A DNA stretch of 12,233 nt from Halothiobacillus neapolitanus (GTDB lineage: Bacteria; Pseudomonadota; Gammaproteobacteria; Halothiobacillales; Halothiobacillaceae): assembly GCA_020721485.1 (NCBI GenBank), contig DYMR01000016.1, positions 2,471 to 14,703 of the forward strand. Reading direction: 5' to 3'. Below the pieces are notes generated by a model. That model did not search any database, was not told the origin of the DNA, and saw nothing but the letters and a program-made list of their open reading frames with translations. A program made the position numbers and the translations under genes. Below, one piece after another: positions 3,041 through 12,233 of the stretch. Every line of letters begins with the position of its first letter. Position 1 is the stretch's first letter.

Positions 3041-3990
<950 letters not shown>

Positions 3991-3994
<4 letters not shown>

Positions 3995-4506
3995 CTGCGC
4001 CATTTGTTCCGCCCGAGGGATTTTCGATCAGCTTGGGCTTTGCCGATCCTTGGGATGCGGCCTTGGCCACGGCGTTCTACCCCGAAGGCATGCCGCCGGA
4101 ATGGCAGGCGAATTATTTGGTGTTGATGACCGATGCGGTGGTGCTGAATCCAACATCGGCGGCTTTTGCTGAGGTGTGGACGGCGTGCCGCGAGGCGCCC
4201 AAGCCGGTGCAGGGGGTTTGGTACGGGGGTGATTTGCCGGCGGATGCCGCCGACTTGTCCGTTTCCTTGCCTTTGCCCTTGCTGACTTGGGTGACCGGTC
4301 AGGAATGGACGCCCGGTGCGTCGGTGCACGGCGCGACGATTGGCCTGCTCGCGCCGGGTTTATCGCCCCGTGCCCTGCGGGATGCGCTGGAAGCCTTCGC
4401 GCGGCAAGCCCCGGCGGCGCCCTGCGCCCTGCTGTTCACCGGCGGTGCGGCGGCGGTGCCTTTGTTGGATCAAACCCGCACCTTAATCGAGCTGCTGGGC
4501 TGGTGA
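3991..4506 (+). CDS. Unrecognised 171-aa protein between the SUMF1-like gene and mlaF
   Basis: I do not recognise this family with confidence. The product is 171 residues, acidic to neutral, Ala/Pro/Leu-rich, with no signal peptide or clear membrane segment, so it is probably cytoplasmic. The N-terminal part (about 10-60), with AFYPEGMPPEWQANYL followed by a Trp-containing helix, loosely resembles the opening of DUF72 TIM-barrel proteins (YPxGxPxxEWLxYY pattern). The protein is too short for a whole DUF72 barrel and the C-terminal half does not obviously match. Reality as a gene is supported by the ATGA overlap with the upstream stop, the one-base gap to mlaF and codon use like its neighbours. 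Position suggests co-expression with Mla, but no function can be assigned. Confidence 0.75.
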
Positions 4507-4507
4507 C

Positions 4508-5323
4508 ATGAGCGTCGAGCCGTACATCCGTTTCGAACAAGTCAGCTTTGCGCGCGGGCGTCAGCGCATTTTCGACCGCGTGAATCTGGACATTCCGCGC
4601 GGGAAAATCACGGCGGTGATGGGGCCTTCCGGTACCGGAAAAACCACGCTGTTGCGGTTGATCGGCGGGCAAATCAAACCCACGCGCGGCAAGGTTTGGG
4701 TCAATGGGTTGGATGTCGCGCGGGCGCGGGCGGGCGAGTTGTTGGCCATGCGCCGCCGCTTGGGGTTTTTGTTCCAAAACGGCGCGCTGTTTACCGATTT
4801 AACCGCTGCCGAGAATGTCGCTTTTCCCCTGCGCGAACATGCGCGGCTGCCCGAGCCGCTGCTCGACCGGGTGGTGGCGCTCAAGTTGAATGCGGTGGGC
4901 ATGCTGGATGCCGCCGAGTCGATGCCCTCGGCGCTGTCTGGCGGCATGGCGCGGCGCGTGGCGCTGGCGCGCGCGCTGGCGCTCGACCCGGAACTGATGT
5001 TGTACGACGAGCCGTTCACCGGACAAGACCCGATCAATGTGGGCATTTTGTTGCGCCTGATCGCCTCGTTGAACCGTGCTTTGAACCTCACCAGCGTGCT
5101 GGTTTCGCACGATGTGGCGGAAACTTTGTCGATTGCCGATCAAGTCATCATTCTCGATCAGGCGCAGATTGTGGCGGCGGGCACGCCGGATGAACTGCGG
5201 GCACGCATGGGCGACATTCCGTTTTTGCAGCGCTTTTTGCAGGGTGCGCCGCCGGATGAAGATTCCGACCGGGCGCTGGCGGCGCGCACACTGCTGGCGA
5301 AAAAGCTGCGGGTGTCTGTATGA
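4508..5323 (+). CDS. mlaF: MlaF, phospholipid-transport ABC ATPase
   Basis: MlaF is the cytoplasmic ATPase of the MlaFEDB inner-membrane complex, which powers phospholipid movement between inner membrane and periplasmic carrier MlaC. The 271-residue product carries every ABC motif: Walker [10 protein letters not shown] (39-47), Q-loop Gln90, signature LSGGM (143-147), Walker B LMLYDEP (163-169) with catalytic Glu168, and switch His201. The [23 protein letters not shown] stretch after the Q-loop is typical of the MlaF/Ttg2A group. The ATG lies one base after the preceding stop, and its 3' end overlaps mlaE by ATGA, so translation is coupled in both directions. Identification is secure. Confidence 0.96.
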
Positions 5324-6144
5324 GTGGCCTGATAATGGGCGTGATAAATGGCCTGATAAAGCGCCTGTCGGATGTTCTGGCCGCCCTGGGGCGGGCGATG
5401 CTGACTGCCGCCGCGCACACCGGCGCACTGGCCGGATTCGCGCTGCGCTTGGCGTGGCGCTTGCTTCCCGCGTGGACGCGCCCCCGATTGATCGTGCAAG
5501 AACTGTTCGTGATCGGCGTGTTGTCGCTGATTATCATCTTGATTTCCGGCGCTTTTGTCGGGCTGGTGTTGGGCTTGCAGGGCTACAATATCCTCTCGAA
5601 ATTCAACGCCACCGAATCGTTGGGGGTGATGGTCGCGCTGTCGCTGGTGCGGGAATTGGGGCCGGTCGTTACCGCCTTGCTGTTTGCGGGTCGCGCCGGT
5701 TCGGCCATCACCGCAGAAATCGCCCTGATGAAAACCACCGAGCAACTGTCCGCGATGGAGATGATGGGCGTCGATCCGCTGCGGCGCGTGGTGGCGCCTC
5801 GGTTTTGGGCGGCACTGTTTTCCATGCCGTTGCTGGCCGGTTTGTTCTCTTTGGTCGGGATTTTGGGCGGCTATGTCATCGGCGTCCTCGTGCTCGGCGT
5901 CGATACGGCGTCGTATTGGGGGCAGATCGGCGAACAAATGCAGCCGGTGGCGGATGTGTTCAATGGCATCGTCAAAAGCCTGGTGTTCGGTGCGGTGGTT
6001 GGTTTGATCGCGGTGTTTGAAGGCTACGCGGCTGAGCCCACTTCGGCAGGGATTTCCCGCGCCACCACCCGCACCGTGGTGCTGAGTTCGCTGGCCGTGT
6101 TGGGGCTGGATTTTATGTTGACCGCTTTAATGTTTGGAGCTTGA
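5320..6144 (+). CDS. mlaE: MlaE, phospholipid-transport permease
   Basis: MlaE is the membrane permease of the Mla complex. The 274-residue product (E. coli about 260) has an N-terminal amphipathic/interfacial region, then hydrophobic segments near 62-86, 103-124, 163-194, 218-236 and 252-271. The family hallmark [20 protein letters not shown] begins at 111 and is followed by [23 protein letters not shown], the cytoplasmic coupling region that contacts MlaF. The start overlaps the mlaF stop (ATGA). A second in-frame ATG at 5335 would remove part of a short N-terminal repeat and could be the true start. Identification is very secure; the start is slightly uncertain. Confidence 0.96.
5326..5361 (+). 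repeat. Three 12-bp units at the 5' end of mlaE
   Basis: Units GGCCTGATAATG, GGCGTGATAAAT and GGCCTGATAAAG lie head to tail in frame and encode GLIM, GVIN and GLIK. A four-residue period suits an amphipathic helix. The pattern suggests a small in-frame duplication that extended the N terminus, which fits MlaE being longer than the E. coli protein. Confidence 0.6.
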
Positions 6145-6145
6145 G

Positions 6146-6607
6146 ATGAACGCGCAACGGGGTTTGGACATCGTGGTGGGGGCGTTCGTGCTCGCCGGGA
6201 TCGTGGCGCTGTTGACGCTCACTTTTAAGTGGAGCGATTTCAGCGCCAGCAGCATTCACGGCTACACGCTCACCGCCGATTTCGACAACATTGGCGGGCT
6301 GACCAACCGCTCGGCGGTGAAGTTGGCGGGCGTGACCATCGGGCGGGTCACGGGCATCCGGGTCGATCCGGCCACCTTTGAGGCCGTGGTGACGATGCAA
6401 ATCGACAACAAATATAACAACCTGCCGAAAGATTCTTTTGCGAACATCTACACCGCCGGCTTGCTGGGCGCGCAGTACATCGAAATTTCTCCGGGCGGCG
6501 ACACGGCGGTGCTGAAAAATGGCGACCGCATCACGATGACACAATCCGCCATCATTCTGGAAAAAGTGATCTCTAAATTCTTGTTCAACAAGGCTGCTGA
6601 TAAATGA
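6146..6607 (+). CDS. mlaD: MlaD, MCE-domain protein of the Mla complex
   Basis: MlaD forms a hexameric ring anchored in the inner membrane, with a central hydrophobic pore through which phospholipids pass between MlaE and MlaC. The 153-residue product has one N-terminal transmembrane helix (about 8-27) and a single MCE domain (about 39-117). Typical stretches are ADFDNIGGLTNRSAVKLAGVTIGRV (44-68) and AGLLGAQYIEISPGG (104-118). It is shorter than E. coli MlaD (about 183), lacking much of the C-terminal extension. The ATG at 6146 is preceded by GGAG at 6136-6139 and begins one base after the mlaE stop. An upstream TTG in the same frame is not needed. Its stop overlaps the TolC-family gene by ATGA. 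Confidence 0.95.
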   Translation: MNAQRGLDIVVGAFVLAGIVALLTLTFKWSDFSASSIHGYTLTADFDNIGGLTNRSAVKLAGVTIGRVTGIRVDPATFEAVVTMQIDNKYNNLPKDSFANIYTAGLLGAQYIEISPGGDTAVLKNGDRITMTQSAIILEKVISKFLFNKAADK

Positions 6608-7968
6608 AAAATTCCTGGCTCTTAGGACTGGCGCTGTTCGGTGCGGCGCACGCGGCGCAGGCGGTGTCGGTCACACTCGAACAGGCCACGCAGATGGCGC
6701 TCAATGCCGATCCGCGCATTGAAGAACAGCGCGCGAATGTCGCGGCGGCGCAGGCGCTGATTCAAAAAGTGGATGGGGAAGGCGGGATTCGCGCCAGTGT
6801 GAACCTGTACGCCGGCCTCGCGCCGAAGGCCACCAACGGCATCTTCACCAACGGCAGCAATACTTGCCCGGCGGGGCAGGGCTGCACGGTGCGAACCGAT
6901 GGCATGAGCCTGAATGATGGCATTACCGTCTCCGGCGGCGTGACGGCGTCGATCATTCAACCGTTGTATACCTTCGGCAAGCTGGAAAACTACCGCACGG
7001 CGGCGGAATACAACAAGAAGTTCAAAACGGAAGAAGTCGCGCTCGCCAAAGGGCAAACCTGGCTCACCGTGCGCCGCGCCTATTACGGCTATTTGACGGC
7101 GCGGGATACGCGGCAGTTTTTGGTGGGCGTGCGGCAACAACTGGCGGATACCGAAGGCCCGCTGACGAAAAAGGCTGAAGAAGGCAAATCGCCGATGCGC
7201 GATGTGTATGCGCTGCAAAACGGTTTGGGGCTGCTGGATCGGTACATTGCCGAGGCTCAAGGCGTTGAGGCGATTGCGCTCGATGGCCTGAAAACCATTA
7301 TTGGCGTGCCCATCAAAGACGATCTGAGCGTGGCCGATGCCCACATTGAGCCCGTCGCCCTGCCGTCTGGCAACTTGCAGCAATTCGCCCAGCAGGCTTT
7401 GGATGATCGCCCAGAAATGAAGATGGCGCAGAGCGGTTTGGCGGCGCTGCGTTCGTATGTGGCCGCGCGCAAAGCCGATTATTACCCGGATTTGTATGCC
7501 GGCATCCTGCTGGCCGGGCAATACACGCCGGGGCGCGAGCGGGTCAATAATCCCTACATTTACGACCCGTTGAATATGGGCATTGCCACGCCCGTGGTGG
7601 GTTTGAAGTGGGACTTCAACCCCGGCGTACTCAAGGCGAATGTGAGTGATGCCGAAGCCCAGTTGCAAGGCGCGGTCGCCAAGGCGCAGCTCGCGCAGAT
7701 GGGGATTCCGTTCCAAGTCTCCGAGGCGTATCACGGCGCAGAATCCTTGAAACAGCAGATCGCGGCACTGGATAAAGCTCGGGCTGCCTCGCGCCGTTGG
7801 ATGATTTCCTCGTTTCTGGATTTCCAAGCCGGCTTGGTCGATGGCGGCGTGTTGGCGCTGGCCGTTGCGGGGAACACCCAAACCCAAGTCGATTACCTGC
7901 GTGCCATCAATGACTACAACCTGAAAGTGGCCGAACTCAAGCTCGCCACCGGAGAATACCCACAATGA
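6604..7968 (+). CDS. TolC-family outer-membrane protein embedded in the mla operon
   Basis: The 454-residue product has a signal peptide (about 1-20, ending AHAAQA) and the two-part architecture of the outer-membrane efflux (TolC) family. Opening helices contain LEQATQMALNADPRIEEQRANVAAAQALI-type sequence (25-53). A mid-region helix YYGYLTARDTRQFL is near 160-173. The second repeat begins ALDDRPEMKMAQSGLAAL (265-282), and the protein ends YNLKVAELKLATG. These proteins form trimeric barrel-tunnel exit ducts. An insertion around 75-105 contains Cys88 and Cys94, which could form a disulfide in an exposed loop. The gene overlaps mlaD upstream and mlaC downstream, each by ATGA, so it is translated with the Mla core. 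E. coli has no TolC gene in its mla operon. Role in lipid transfer or solvent extrusion is inference; no periplasmic adaptor gene is in the window. Confidence 0.9.
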   Translation: MKNSWLLGLALFGAAHAAQAVSVTLEQATQMALNADPRIEEQRANVAAAQALIQKVDGEGGIRASVNLYAGLAPKATNGIFTNGSNTCPAGQGCTVRTDGMSLNDGITVSGGVTASIIQPLYTFGKLENYRTAAEYNKKFKTEEVALAKGQTWLTVRRAYYGYLTARDTRQFLVGVRQQLADTEGPLTKKAEEGKSPMRDVYALQNGLGLLDRYIAEAQGVEAIALDGLKTIIGVPIKDDLSVADAHIEPVALPSGNLQQFAQQALDDRPEMKMAQSGLAALRSYVAARKADYYPDLYAGILLAGQYTPGRERVNNPYIYDPLNMGIATPVVGLKWDFNPGVLKANVSDAEAQLQGAVAKAQLAQMGIPFQVSEAYHGAESLKQQIAALDKARAASRRWMISSFLDFQAGLVDGGVLALAVAGNTQTQVDYLRAINDYNLKVAELKLATGEYPQ

Positions 7969-8582
7969 ACCGCCTGTTTGTCTGGATTTTTGCTGCCCTG
8001 AGCCTGTTCGGCGCCCCGTTGGTGCAGGCCGATGCGCCTGCCGCCAGCCCGGAAGCCGCCATGCAGATGGTGCAAAACACCGCCGATACCGTGATTAAAG
8101 AAATTGCCGCCCAGCAAGATGCGGTACAGAAAGATTCATCGGTACTGCTCGGCATCGTCAAAAAAACCCTGTTGCCGCATGTGGATTCCGAACGCATGAG
8201 CCGCCTGGTATTGGGCCGCTACTGGCGCAGCGCCACCGCCGCGCAGAAAACTGAATTTACCGAACAATTTCAGCAACTTCTGGTGCGAACCTACGCAGGG
8301 CCCTTGTCGAAACTGGGGAATCAAACCATTAAAGTCACTGGCACCAAACCGGGGCCGGAATCGGGCGAATTGGTGGTGGAATCGGAGTTGATCGGCGGCG
8401 ATATGGGCAAAGTGCCGGTGAATTACCGCGTCGCGCCCGTCAACGGCCAATGGCAGGCGTTCGATGTGGTGATCGACGGCATCAGCCTCATCAACAACTA
8501 CCGGGGCAGCTTTGCCGAAGTCATTCAGCGCAAAGGCCTTGATGGCTTAATCAACACCTTAAAGAGCCAAAACAATGGCTGA
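7965..8582 (+). CDS. mlaC: MlaC, periplasmic phospholipid-binding protein
   Basis: MlaC shuttles phospholipids across the periplasm between the MlaFEDB complex and the outer-membrane partner (MlaA in E. coli). The 205-residue product has a signal peptide cleaved after about residue 22 (LVQA-DA), then the MlaC/Ttg2D domain. Family-type stretches include LLPHVDSERMSRLVLGRYWRSAT, FQQLLVRTYAGPL and the C-terminal DVVIDGISLINNYRGSFAEVI. The length is normal. Its ATG overlaps the TolC-family stop, and its stop overlaps mlaB by eight bases. Identification is secure. No mlaA is present in the window. Confidence 0.95.
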   Translation: MNRLFVWIFAALSLFGAPLVQADAPAASPEAAMQMVQNTADTVIKEIAAQQDAVQKDSSVLLGIVKKTLLPHVDSERMSRLVLGRYWRSATAAQKTEFTEQFQQLLVRTYAGPLSKLGNQTIKVTGTKPGPESGELVVESELIGGDMGKVPVNYRVAPVNGQWQAFDVVIDGISLINNYRGSFAEVIQRKGLDGLINTLKSQNNG

Positions 8583-8919
8583 GCCGACGCCGGCGGCAAC
8601 GACCACCGCCGAGCCGCTGCACCTAGTACACACGCCGGGGTGTTTGCGGGTGCAGGGCGATTTGACGCGCCCGCAGATTGAAGCGCTGACGAGCCATGCC
8701 CTGCCCACGCTGGAGGGGCAGGGCAAAGGCAGCCGCCTCGAAATTGCCTTGGGTCAGGTGCGGGCGATTGATACCGTGGGCGTTGCGTTTCTGTTGGGCT
8801 GGCAGGCCAGCGCGCAAGCACAATCCATAGCGCTGCGGTACACTCACCCGCCCAAAGCGTTGCGCGCCATGGCCGAAGTGTATGGACTGGGCGCGCTGAT
8901 GCCGTTCGAGGGTCTGTAA
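8575..8919 (+). CDS. mlaB: MlaB, STAS-domain subunit of the Mla complex
   Basis: MlaB is a small cytoplasmic STAS-domain protein that binds MlaF and stabilises the ABC complex. The 114-residue product has a low-complexity start (1-15), a strand-rich section LRVQGDLTRPQIEAL (24-38) and the STAS motif VRAIDTVGVAFLLGW (62-76). Thr67 occupies the position of the functional Ser/Thr in other MlaB proteins. STAS proteins are weakly conserved, so identity relies on this motif plus place at the end of the mla genes. It starts inside mlaC (eight-base overlap), with AAAGAG a short distance upstream. It is the last gene of the coupled run. Confidence 0.92.
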   Translation: MAEPTPAATTTAEPLHLVHTPGCLRVQGDLTRPQIEALTSHALPTLEGQGKGSRLEIALGQVRAIDTVGVAFLLGWQASAQAQSIALRYTHPPKALRAMAEVYGLGALMPFEGL

Positions 8920-10265
<1,346 letters not shown>

Positions 10266-10281: not shown

Positions 10282-10944
10282 ATGAACCCTCCCGCTGCCG
10301 ACGCCCCGCTGATCGTCGCTCTATCCAAAGGGCGAATTTTCAAAGACACGCTGCCCTTGCTCACGCATGCCGGCATCGTGCCGATTGATGATCCGGAAAC
10401 CACCCGCAAACTCATTCTCGATACCAATCATCCGGGAATTAAGTTGCTGATTTTGCGCGCATCCGATGTGCCGACCTATGTGCAATACGGCGCGGCGGAT
10501 GTGGGCGTGGCGGGCAAAGATGTGCTGATGGAGCACGGCGGCGACGGCCTGTTCGAGCTGCTCGACCTTCAGATTGCCCGCTGCAAACTGATGGTGGCCG
10601 GCCGTCCGGGCTGCTTGGATCGGCCGGGGCGGCTGCGGGTGGCGACCAAATTTGTGCATTCCGCCGAGCATTTTTTTGCGGATGCCGGTCGGCAAATCGA
10701 GCTCATCAAGCTGTACGGCTCGATGGAGCTGGCGCCGTTGGTGGACTTGGCCGATTGCATCGTCGATGTGGTCGATACCGGCAACACCCTGCGCGCGAAC
10801 GGCTTGGAGCCGCTGTTGCACATGGCGGATATTTCCTCCCGATTGATCGTCAACCGCGCCGCGTTCAAGCTCAAGCACGCGGCGATTGCGGCGCTGGCCG
10901 ATCACTTGGCCGACTACCTCAACAAAGATACCCCCCCGCAGTAA
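10282..10944 (+). CDS. hisG: ATP phosphoribosyltransferase, short-form catalytic subunit (HisG)
   Basis: HisG condenses ATP and PRPP in the first step of histidine synthesis. The 220-residue product is the short form. It has the catalytic domains, with ALSKGRIF (13-20), [24 protein letters not shown] (59-82) and the PRPP-binding segment [15 protein letters not shown] (161-175), but ends where the long form (about 299 residues in E. coli) would begin its C-terminal regulatory domain. Known short-form enzymes work as a complex with HisZ, a histidyl-tRNA-synthetase-like regulatory subunit, which is not in this window. The ATG at 10282 has GAGAG at 10268-10272. An extended in-frame start inside murA is rejected. 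A run of seven C at 10931-10937 sits just before the stop. Confidence 0.95.
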
Positions 10945-10999
10945 ACCGCCTGACTGCCGGGTGGCTGTGCTGAACTTGCGGATTTTGGAATACCCGTCA

Positions 11000-12233
11000 A
11001 TGAACATCCAACGCCTGAATACGCTGTCCGCCGATTTTGACGCCCGATTGTCGGCGCTGCTCGCTTGGGAATCGGTGTCCGATGACCAAGTATTCTCCAC
11101 CGTGCAGGGCATCCTGCGGGATGTGCGCGCGCGCGGGGATGCCGCCGTGTTGGACTACACCGCCCGTTTCGATCATTTTCACGCGAAGGACATGGCCGAA
11201 CTGGAAGTCTCCGTGCCGCGCATGGAGGCATCGCTGGCACGCATTCCCGCCGCGCAGCGCGATGCCCTGGAGCAAGCCGCCGAGCGCATTCGCCGCTACG
11301 CCGAGCGCCAAAAGCTGGAATCTTGGCAGTATGTCGAGGCCGATGGCACCGTTTTGGGGCAGAAAGTGACCCCGCTCGACCGCGTGGGGCTATATGTGCC
11401 GGGCGGCAAGGCGGCGTATCCCTCGTCGGTGCTGATGAACGCCATTCCGGCCAAAGTCGCGGGCGTGCCGGAATTGATCGTGGTGGCGCCGGCACCCCGA
11501 GGCGAGCTGAATGATTTAGTGCTTGCCGCCTGCCGGATTGCCGGTGCCGACCGCGTGTTCGCCATCGGCGGCGCGCAAGCCGTGGCCGCCTTGGCCTACG
11601 GCACAACCCGCATTCCGCCGGTCGATAAAATCACCGGTCCGGGCAATATTTTCGTGGCCACGGCCAAACGCATGGTCTTCGGCACCGTCGGCATCGACAT
11701 GATCGCCGGCCCCTCGGAAATCGTGGTGGTCTGCGATGGCAAAACCGATCCCGATTGGATTGCGATGGACTTATTCTCGCAAGCCGAACACGACGAACAA
11801 GCGCAAGCGATTTTGATTTCCCCCGATGCGGCCTTCCTCGATGCGGCGGCGGCGGCGGCGACTCGACTGGTGAAAACCATGCCGCGTGGCGACATCATTC
11901 TCGCCTCCATGCAAAGCCGGGGCGCGTTGATCCAAGTGCGCGATTTGGACGAAGCCGCCGCCGTGGTGAACGCCATCGCGCCGGAGCATTTGGAATTATC
12001 CCTCGATGAGGCCGAGGCCTACGCCGAAAAAATTCGTCACGCCGGGGCGATTTTTATGGGGCGTTACACCGCCGAGGCGCTGGGTGACTACTGCGCCGGC
12101 CCGAACCATGTGCTGCCCACCTCCCGCACCGCCCGATTCTCCTCGCCGCTGGGGGTGTACGACTTCCAAAAACGCAGCAGCCTGATCGGTTGCTCGGCGC
12201 AGGGCGCCTCCGCGCTCGGGAAAATCGCGCGGG
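11000..12233 (+). CDS. hisD: Histidinol dehydrogenase (HisD), 3' end outside window
   Basis: HisD oxidises histidinol to histidine in two NAD-dependent steps, the last reactions of the pathway. The first 411 residues are visible and uninterrupted; E. coli HisD has 434, so only the C-terminal tail is cut by the window edge. Visible features include [18 protein letters not shown] (130-147), [11 protein letters not shown] (210-220), zinc ligands Gln261 and His264 in SQAEHDEQ, the catalytic Glu329-His330 pair in APEHLE, and Asp363 and His370 in [13 protein letters not shown]. The last expected zinc ligand, a C-terminal His, lies beyond the edge. The start at 11000 gives the usual N terminus. It lies 55 bases after hisG, with only a weak TGGAA as ribosome-binding site. 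Confidence 0.96.
11843..11860 (+). repeat. (GCG)6 trinucleotide run in hisD
   Basis: Six consecutive GCG codons give Ala282-Ala287 in a surface-helix region between the zinc-binding segment and the catalytic Glu-His motif. It is in frame and probably benign, but is a small slippage-prone tract in a gene otherwise free of repeats. Confidence 0.7.

Follow-up and report, generated by a model that had tools for sequence, protein, structure and literature searches.

A TolC-family channel gene in the mla operon of Halothiobacillus neapolitanus and its possible role in place of MlaA

A stretch of 12,233 nucleotides from Halothiobacillus neapolitanus, referred to throughout as the window, was analysed on the basis of its ORF list and Pfam comparisons, revealing a TolC-family gene sandwiched by mlaD and mlaC (Table 1). 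The canonical inner-membrane and periplasmic Mla components F, E, D, C and B are all encoded in the one operon. MlaE and MlaD both score above their respective NCBIfam cut-offs; MlaB, MlaC and MlaF fall below theirs yet exceed the cut-offs for the corresponding Pfam domains, the top NCBIfam match for the mlaF product being the MlaF model NF008809 (314 bits against a cut-off of 441). The window MlaC additionally matches the E. coli MlaC chain 8oj4_H with an E-value of 4.6e-19. The mechanically defined mlaD ORF spans 6134-6607 (157 aa), although the gene probably starts at the ATG at 6146 as opposed to the TTG at 6134, giving an MlaD protein of about 153 aa. With regard to the flanking genes, the SIS/CBS-domain protein and HAD hydrolase are presumably kdsD-like and kdsC-like, respectively, while the cut ORF at the window end is taken to be hisD-like.

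Table 1. Genes of the window, with positions, strand and the matches on which each assignment is based.
Feature	Position	Strand	Evidence or remark
SIS/CBS-domain protein, HAD hydrolase, lptC		minus	Pfam for the first two, NCBIfam for lptC; precede the plus-strand genes
FGE-like gene	3041-3994	plus	FGE-sulfatase Pfam match; ahead of the mla operon
Small protein 5' of mlaF	3991-4506	plus	No Pfam family
mlaF, ABC ATPase	4508-5323	plus	PF00005, 110 bits
mlaE, permease	5320-6144	plus	NF033619, 372 bits (cut-off 315); PF02405, 241 bits
mlaD, single MCE domain, short form	6146-6607	plus	TIGR04430, 181 bits (cut-off 135)
mla-associated TolC-family channel, 454 aa	6604-7968	plus	OEP, PF02321
mlaC, periplasmic lipid shuttle	7965-8582	plus	PF05494, 176 bits
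mlaB, STAS-domain protein	8575-8919	plus	PF13466, 61 bits
murA		plus	Follows mlaB
hisG		plus	Follows murA
Cut ORF	10886-12232	plus	Follows hisG

A preliminary description of this DNA had placed the channel gene between mlaD and mlaC, coupled to both by ATGA overlaps, and had noted that mlaA was absent from the window. The window bases bear out the former, with overlaps at 6604-6607 (mlaD and the TolC gene) and 7965-7968 (the TolC gene and mlaC), and a further overlap at 5320 between mlaF and mlaE. The latter holds for the 14 proteins compared with Pfam, which are those encoded beyond the minus-strand segment at bases 1-600 and before the cut ORF: neither mlaA nor any adaptor (HlyD/MFP), pump or MacB-type gene was found among them. 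A search of the whole source genome, which is a 1.8 Mb draft that is 81% complete, with PF04333 (MlaA) also returned no match.

The 454 aa channel protein matches the OEP family PF02321 alone among Pfam models (101.5 bits, cut-off 22), and reaches 64.5 bits against the NCBIfam model for TolC family outer membrane proteins, TIGR01844, which is under the curated cut-off of 225.15. An AlphaFold2 model of the single chain, built with 60 sequences, has a pLDDT of 90.2 and resembles a TolC protomer, with predicted strands at residues 63-74, 107-122, 296-307 and 325-335 and a pair of helices, 67 and 69 residues long. Foldseek and VIA-align matched the model to TolC, OprN, OprM and CusC across nearly the full chain, whereas a sequence search of the PDB recovered CusC and SilC only, and weakly. 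The PF02321 repeats and the predicted fold thus place the protein in the TolC/outer-membrane factor family. Its N-terminus comprises a hydrophobic stretch that contains no cysteine, and the protein is therefore not an evident lipoprotein. A subfamily signature, RRWM-x5-DFxAG, is located at residues 397-410 near a periplasmic hairpin, with W399, A409 and G410 present in 60/60 aligned rows; the source genome encodes nine further OEP-family ORFs, and the signature is absent from the eight of these that were aligned. Of 17 segments compared over the 60 relatives, none is more conserved than the second surface loop, and the first loop is average. Residues 88 and 94, in the first surface loop, are a pair of cysteines that is shared by some relatives, though not all, and that may form a disulfide. 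The best 120 of 452 protein matches are annotated in general terms alone (e.g. 'TolC family protein'); among them, the nearest named one, at 90% identity, is from Halothiobacillus sp. DCM-1.

Next, the gene order at related loci was examined. Of 30 relative loci, 29 have an ortholog, and in all 29 the gene is flanked by mlaD and by mlaC, which indicates that the placement is more than chance; the 30th (L045) is a 22% identity match without flanking mlaD or mlaC. A scan of species genomes yielded 390 relatives, the nearest named loci being mostly from Halothiobacillus and Guyparkeria, and the 80 of the 390 that were kept including Thiobacillus, Sulfuriferula, Sulfuricella, Sulfurimicrobium, Candidatus Tenderia and Chromatiaceae; the TolC-carrying mla operon is found in many sulfur-oxidising and related bacteria. 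Among 80 named loci, the D-TolC-C order was observed in 74, and likewise by coordinates in L099, while four have an mla gene on one side only. Three of 29 loci from the class sample (L143, L144 and L162) came out in another gene order, which is probably an artefact of sorting stop-to-stop frames. Spacing between the TolC gene and mlaC was obtained for 37/45 genomes, with the two adjacent in 36 (87-246 bases between profile edges) and on two contigs in the other. Comparison operons that lack the channel are mostly arranged F-E-D-C-B. Two genomes of family f108 (G249 and G133), however, have the order F-E-D-mlaA-C; that is, the same operon as in the window, with MlaA instead of a TolC-type channel in the same slot. 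At L186, L204 and L207, which are likewise comparison loci, mlaA is next to the operon but on the opposite strand. As a separate observation, a Thiobacillus denitrificans MAG (L087) carries an ABC-2 exporter pair at 8273-9930, with mla genes on one side and a murA-like ORF on the other; no such pair is present in the window.

The distribution of the channel and of MlaA was then compared. In a first sample of 57 genomes, comprising the source genome and relatives, and with orthologs defined by 40% identity or more, the ortholog was found in 29 genomes, including 27/27 family members, and MlaA in 22, none of which was among the 29 ortholog carriers; PF04333 was not matched in any of the 27 family members. 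In a class-wide sample of 369 genomes, the mla-associated TolC was present in 45 genomes from 21 families, with one match apiece, MlaA in 286 and MlaC in 342. MlaC was present in 45/45 TolC-type genomes. The preliminary description had called for a survey of whether the two outer-membrane components anticorrelate, and in raw counts they do so strongly: the 342 MlaC-bearing genomes divide into 4 with both, 41 with TolC only, 277 with MlaA only and 20 with neither (Fisher p 3.7e-33, a statistic that ignores ancestry), such that MlaA occurs in 4/45 TolC-type genomes as opposed to 282/324 others, or 277/297 others with MlaC. It seems unlikely that the absence of MlaA is an artefact of incomplete drafts, since 35/39 good-quality TolC-type class genomes, some of them on a single contig, have no MlaA. 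The four genomes that retain both (G109, G127, G154 and G222) are all of good quality; in G222, some 2 kb of other sequence, including what is presumably a dehydrogenase-like ORF (L175, 6497-7411), separates mlaD from the channel gene. A phylum-wide sample of 349 genomes, in which matches to an E-value of 1e-15 were counted, contained five carriers, including the window's own genome. Three of these belong to other classes, all with the order mlaE-D-TolC-C, and MlaA was found in none of the four other carriers (the three from other classes and one more from the window's class). The 20 class genomes that have MlaC with neither MlaA nor the mla TolC (e.g. G118, G143 and G221) include some that are incomplete; some of the 20 may hold another outer-membrane partner.

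The extent to which this exclusion reflects common descent was assessed with an operon tree constructed from MlaE, MlaD and MlaC of 78 loci, comprising 37 TolC-type rows and 41 of 53 comparison loci, with L144 left out. The comparison loci were picked from the best-scoring MlaC matches listed, as opposed to at random, and the other 12 that were fetched have no mlaD-mlaC operon; at an earlier alignment step five short rows had been dropped and the TolC-type loci thinned to 47. On this tree there are 10 changes of state for TolC presence and 15 for MlaA presence, and at least five changes of the class with TolC and no MlaA are forced by supported branches, under a bootstrap that had yet to settle. 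Well-supported branches provide three independent pairs, of which on average 2.7 are opposite (p 0.25, in a test that requires at least six informative pairs to attain significance). The association between TolC and MlaA is therefore not significant by the independent-pairs test after allowing for ancestry. Shared ancestry inflates the correlation; the exclusion recurs over the tree but may still depend on lineage.

In order to identify which of the Mla proteins differ with operon type, alignment columns of MlaC, MlaD and MlaE were contrasted between types, the null being 340 traits that were simulated over the 78-row tree; this null replaced plain label shuffling because the latter ignores ancestry. 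The best column, found by a scan of all columns in the three proteins, is in MlaC, with a divergence of 0.59 that was attained by 0/340 simulated traits; the top-ten mean for MlaC has a p value of 0.012. Conversely, columns in MlaD (p 0.73) and MlaE (p 0.28) did not separate the operon types beyond the simulated null. The MlaC column corresponds to window residue 148, which aligns with E. coli P144 and is located at a hairpin turn. It is occupied by F in 18/37 channel-type rows and by P in 16/41 others, the window having G, while at least one MlaA-type row (L179) carries the TolC-type residue, F. According to excerpts of published work on E. coli, MlaC contacts MlaA through K128, V171, S172, T175 and a positive patch (PMC10719372), and a cleft near helix 3 and strands beta3/beta4 holds the MlaA tail (PMC10245069). 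None of the published MlaA-contact columns, with divergences of 0.03-0.28, differs between types beyond the null; the site of one published contact, K84, is uncertain, since the E. coli letter at that position is S here and K is at 83. On the evidence of these columns, the partner that may have changed is MlaC and not MlaD. The earlier suggestion that the TolC protein could be an outer-membrane docking site in a variant Mla system is supported in part, the anticorrelation with mlaA being strong in raw counts.

A separate housekeeping TolC ortholog was identified in 24/27 family members, enabling the two channels to be compared within the same genomes (housekeeping loci L234-L257). The proteins belong to the same family and are of similar size, but the housekeeping TolC is encoded by a separate gene and shows the inverse pattern of conservation. 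Across the 24 two-TolC genomes, and with loop limits that were set from the model and alignment and are hence approximate, identity in the two surface loops amounts to 57% and 72% for the mla TolC (61% overall), compared with 25% and 30% for the housekeeping TolC (56% overall), while the periplasmic tip is 56% identical in the former and 81% in the latter. The less conserved tip of the mla TolC does not favour adaptor-like docking at this site, and the conserved surface loops are more easily reconciled with a role at the outer leaflet than with adaptor-driven efflux. One family member (G004, 99% complete) had no housekeeping TolC detectable at an E-value of 1e-40.

To our knowledge, MlaA with a porin is the one known outer-membrane partner of MlaC. 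It seems probable that the window encodes a variant Mla system in which a dedicated, operon-encoded TolC-type trimer replaces MlaA (and the porin) in this capacity, and the channel is probably the outer-membrane end of the pathway in TolC-type genomes. The MlaFEDB inner-membrane ABC machine and the MlaC shuttle would be retained, with the outer-membrane end swapped. Since the inner machine and shuttle look ordinary and the outer end is exchanged, MlaC would exchange lipid with the channel as opposed to MlaA-porin, passing it between the MlaD ring and the channel's periplasmic end by way of a putative contact, and the channel would use its conserved surface loops at the outer leaflet. The gene order and slot, the predicted fold, the distribution with its near-exclusion of MlaA, the separate housekeeping TolC and the loop and MlaC-column patterns are observed; we infer that the channel is trimeric, that MlaC contacts it, and that lipid passes through it. 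Weighing against this reading are the four genomes that retain both genes and the 20 with neither, the small number of supported independent pairs, the origin of the MlaC column in a scan of three proteins, the TolC-type residue in L179, the published contact columns that do not stand out, the less conserved periplasmic tip, and G004. Retrograde transport has been proposed for Mla in E. coli, and because MlaE and MlaD are unremarkable in sequence our guess leans slightly towards the same direction here. The preliminary description had acknowledged that its proposal would sit badly with a neighbourhood that is not conserved, or with a genome encoding a normal MlaA and a pump for which this protein is the TolC. 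Instead, the same order is found in relatives, even in three genomes of other classes, PF04333 has no match in the draft source genome, and most family members have a housekeeping TolC besides.

A bolder version, in which MlaFEDB, MlaC and the TolC trimer make up a single lipid machine across the envelope, with MlaC bridging or plugging the gap and lipid moving through or along the channel, is a tentative suggestion that we regard as doubtful. The MlaD ring is six-fold and the TolC entrance pseudo-six-fold, and the symmetries therefore match; such a machine, if it exists, would be a third type of design, in addition to the MlaA-MlaC ferry and the long-MlaD bridge, and would place a TolC-family channel in the control of lipid asymmetry. 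It is also conceivable, albeit rather improbable, that the system is an anterograde exporter, in which MlaFEDB and MlaC push phospholipid, a hopanoid or another lipid to the surface via the channel, much as glycolipids are exported by DevBCA-HgdD of Anabaena. TolC-family channels are exit ducts, the surface loops of the mla TolC are conserved, the window MlaC scores about equally with models for the hopanoid-associated HpnM and for MlaC (both below cut-off), and HgdD is reportedly needed for the export of heterocyst glycolipid, according to excerpts of PMC8277102. Set against this, MlaD and MlaE of TolC-type operons are indistinguishable from others beyond the phylogenetic null, MlaC is retained in every TolC-type class genome, and the scan of window proteins revealed neither an adaptor nor a pump of the MacB type.

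The idea that an ordinary efflux channel serving RND, ABC or type I pumps has settled in the mla operon, with loss of mlaA being an unrelated trait of the lineage, draws on the nine other OEP-family ORFs in the genome, such channels being common, on the few well-supported independent changes underlying the association, on the ABC-2 exporter pair downstream in some relatives (e.g. L087), and on G004, in which the mla channel is accompanied by no detected housekeeping TolC. We consider it very improbable nonetheless, given that the gene occupies the same slot in different families and classes, that 24/27 family members have a separate housekeeping TolC, and that the two channels show opposite patterns of loop conservation. 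Adaptor and pump genes were likewise not found among the window proteins scanned, a test made at the window only, such that a partner gene may be located elsewhere in the genome. A general efflux function was thus judged unlikely, on the basis of the separate housekeeping TolC and of the pump genes not found in the window.

The E. coli Mla system (MlaA-OmpC/F, MlaC and MlaFEDB) has in common with the window the F, E, D, C and B components, the operon order and a short, single-MCE MlaD; it differs in having MlaA, which was not found here, the gene between mlaD and mlaC in the window being that of a TolC-fold channel. The preliminary description had surmised that TolC-like genes occur near mla loci in other lineages, and this is indeed the case in the Negativicutes: the excerpted text of Grasekamp 2023 (PMC10665443) describes an mlaEFD-tolC-tamB cluster in Veillonella parvula, conserved in all Negativicutes, without MlaA and MlaC, and proposes that a long MlaD, which carries a beta-barrel of its own, acts as the bridge, as opposed to TolC. 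As far as that text goes, the two systems share a tolC homologue after the mlaEFD genes and the absence of MlaA, but the window is unlike Veillonella in that MlaC is kept, MlaD is short (about 153 aa) and the next genes are mlaC, mlaB and murA; it does not, therefore, represent the minimal Mla type defined by a long, barrel-tipped MlaD and no MlaC. The Anabaena DevBCA-HgdD glycolipid exporter similarly combines an ABC machine with a TolC-family channel acting on lipid, although in the parts of PMC8277102 drawn on here it comprises a MacB-like transporter, an adaptor and a channel shared with other pumps, and no adaptor or MacB-type gene was found at our locus. A literature search of open-licence PMC papers found no description of the D-TolC-C arrangement in Pseudomonadota. 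In so far as these excerpted sources allow, what is known is a TolC gene beside mla genes in Negativicutes, and what is new is a channel in the mlaA slot with MlaC and a short MlaD kept.

The way in which phospholipids reach or leave the outer leaflet is one of the central questions still open in outer-membrane biology. If MlaA has been replaced by a protein of unrelated fold in approximately one eighth of the class genomes sampled (45/369), these bacteria would offer an independent test system for what MlaC needs in a partner, and TolC-type channels could be dedicated to lipid traffic in Pseudomonadota.

Finally, the genes upstream of mlaF were examined. Relatives of the small protein are encoded 5' of mlaE/mlaF at 46/71 TolC-type loci compared with 7/37 other loci, counting only those with enough upstream sequence (a further 13 had too little). 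The small protein was considered as a further component of the system and set aside, since it is associated with TolC-type operons but is not specific to them. Its relative in L087 (3243-3800) has a faint match to DUF72 (E 0.013, below cut-off). The FGE-like protein encoded ahead of the mla operon contains a short repeat, GPDSS, in its N-terminal region.
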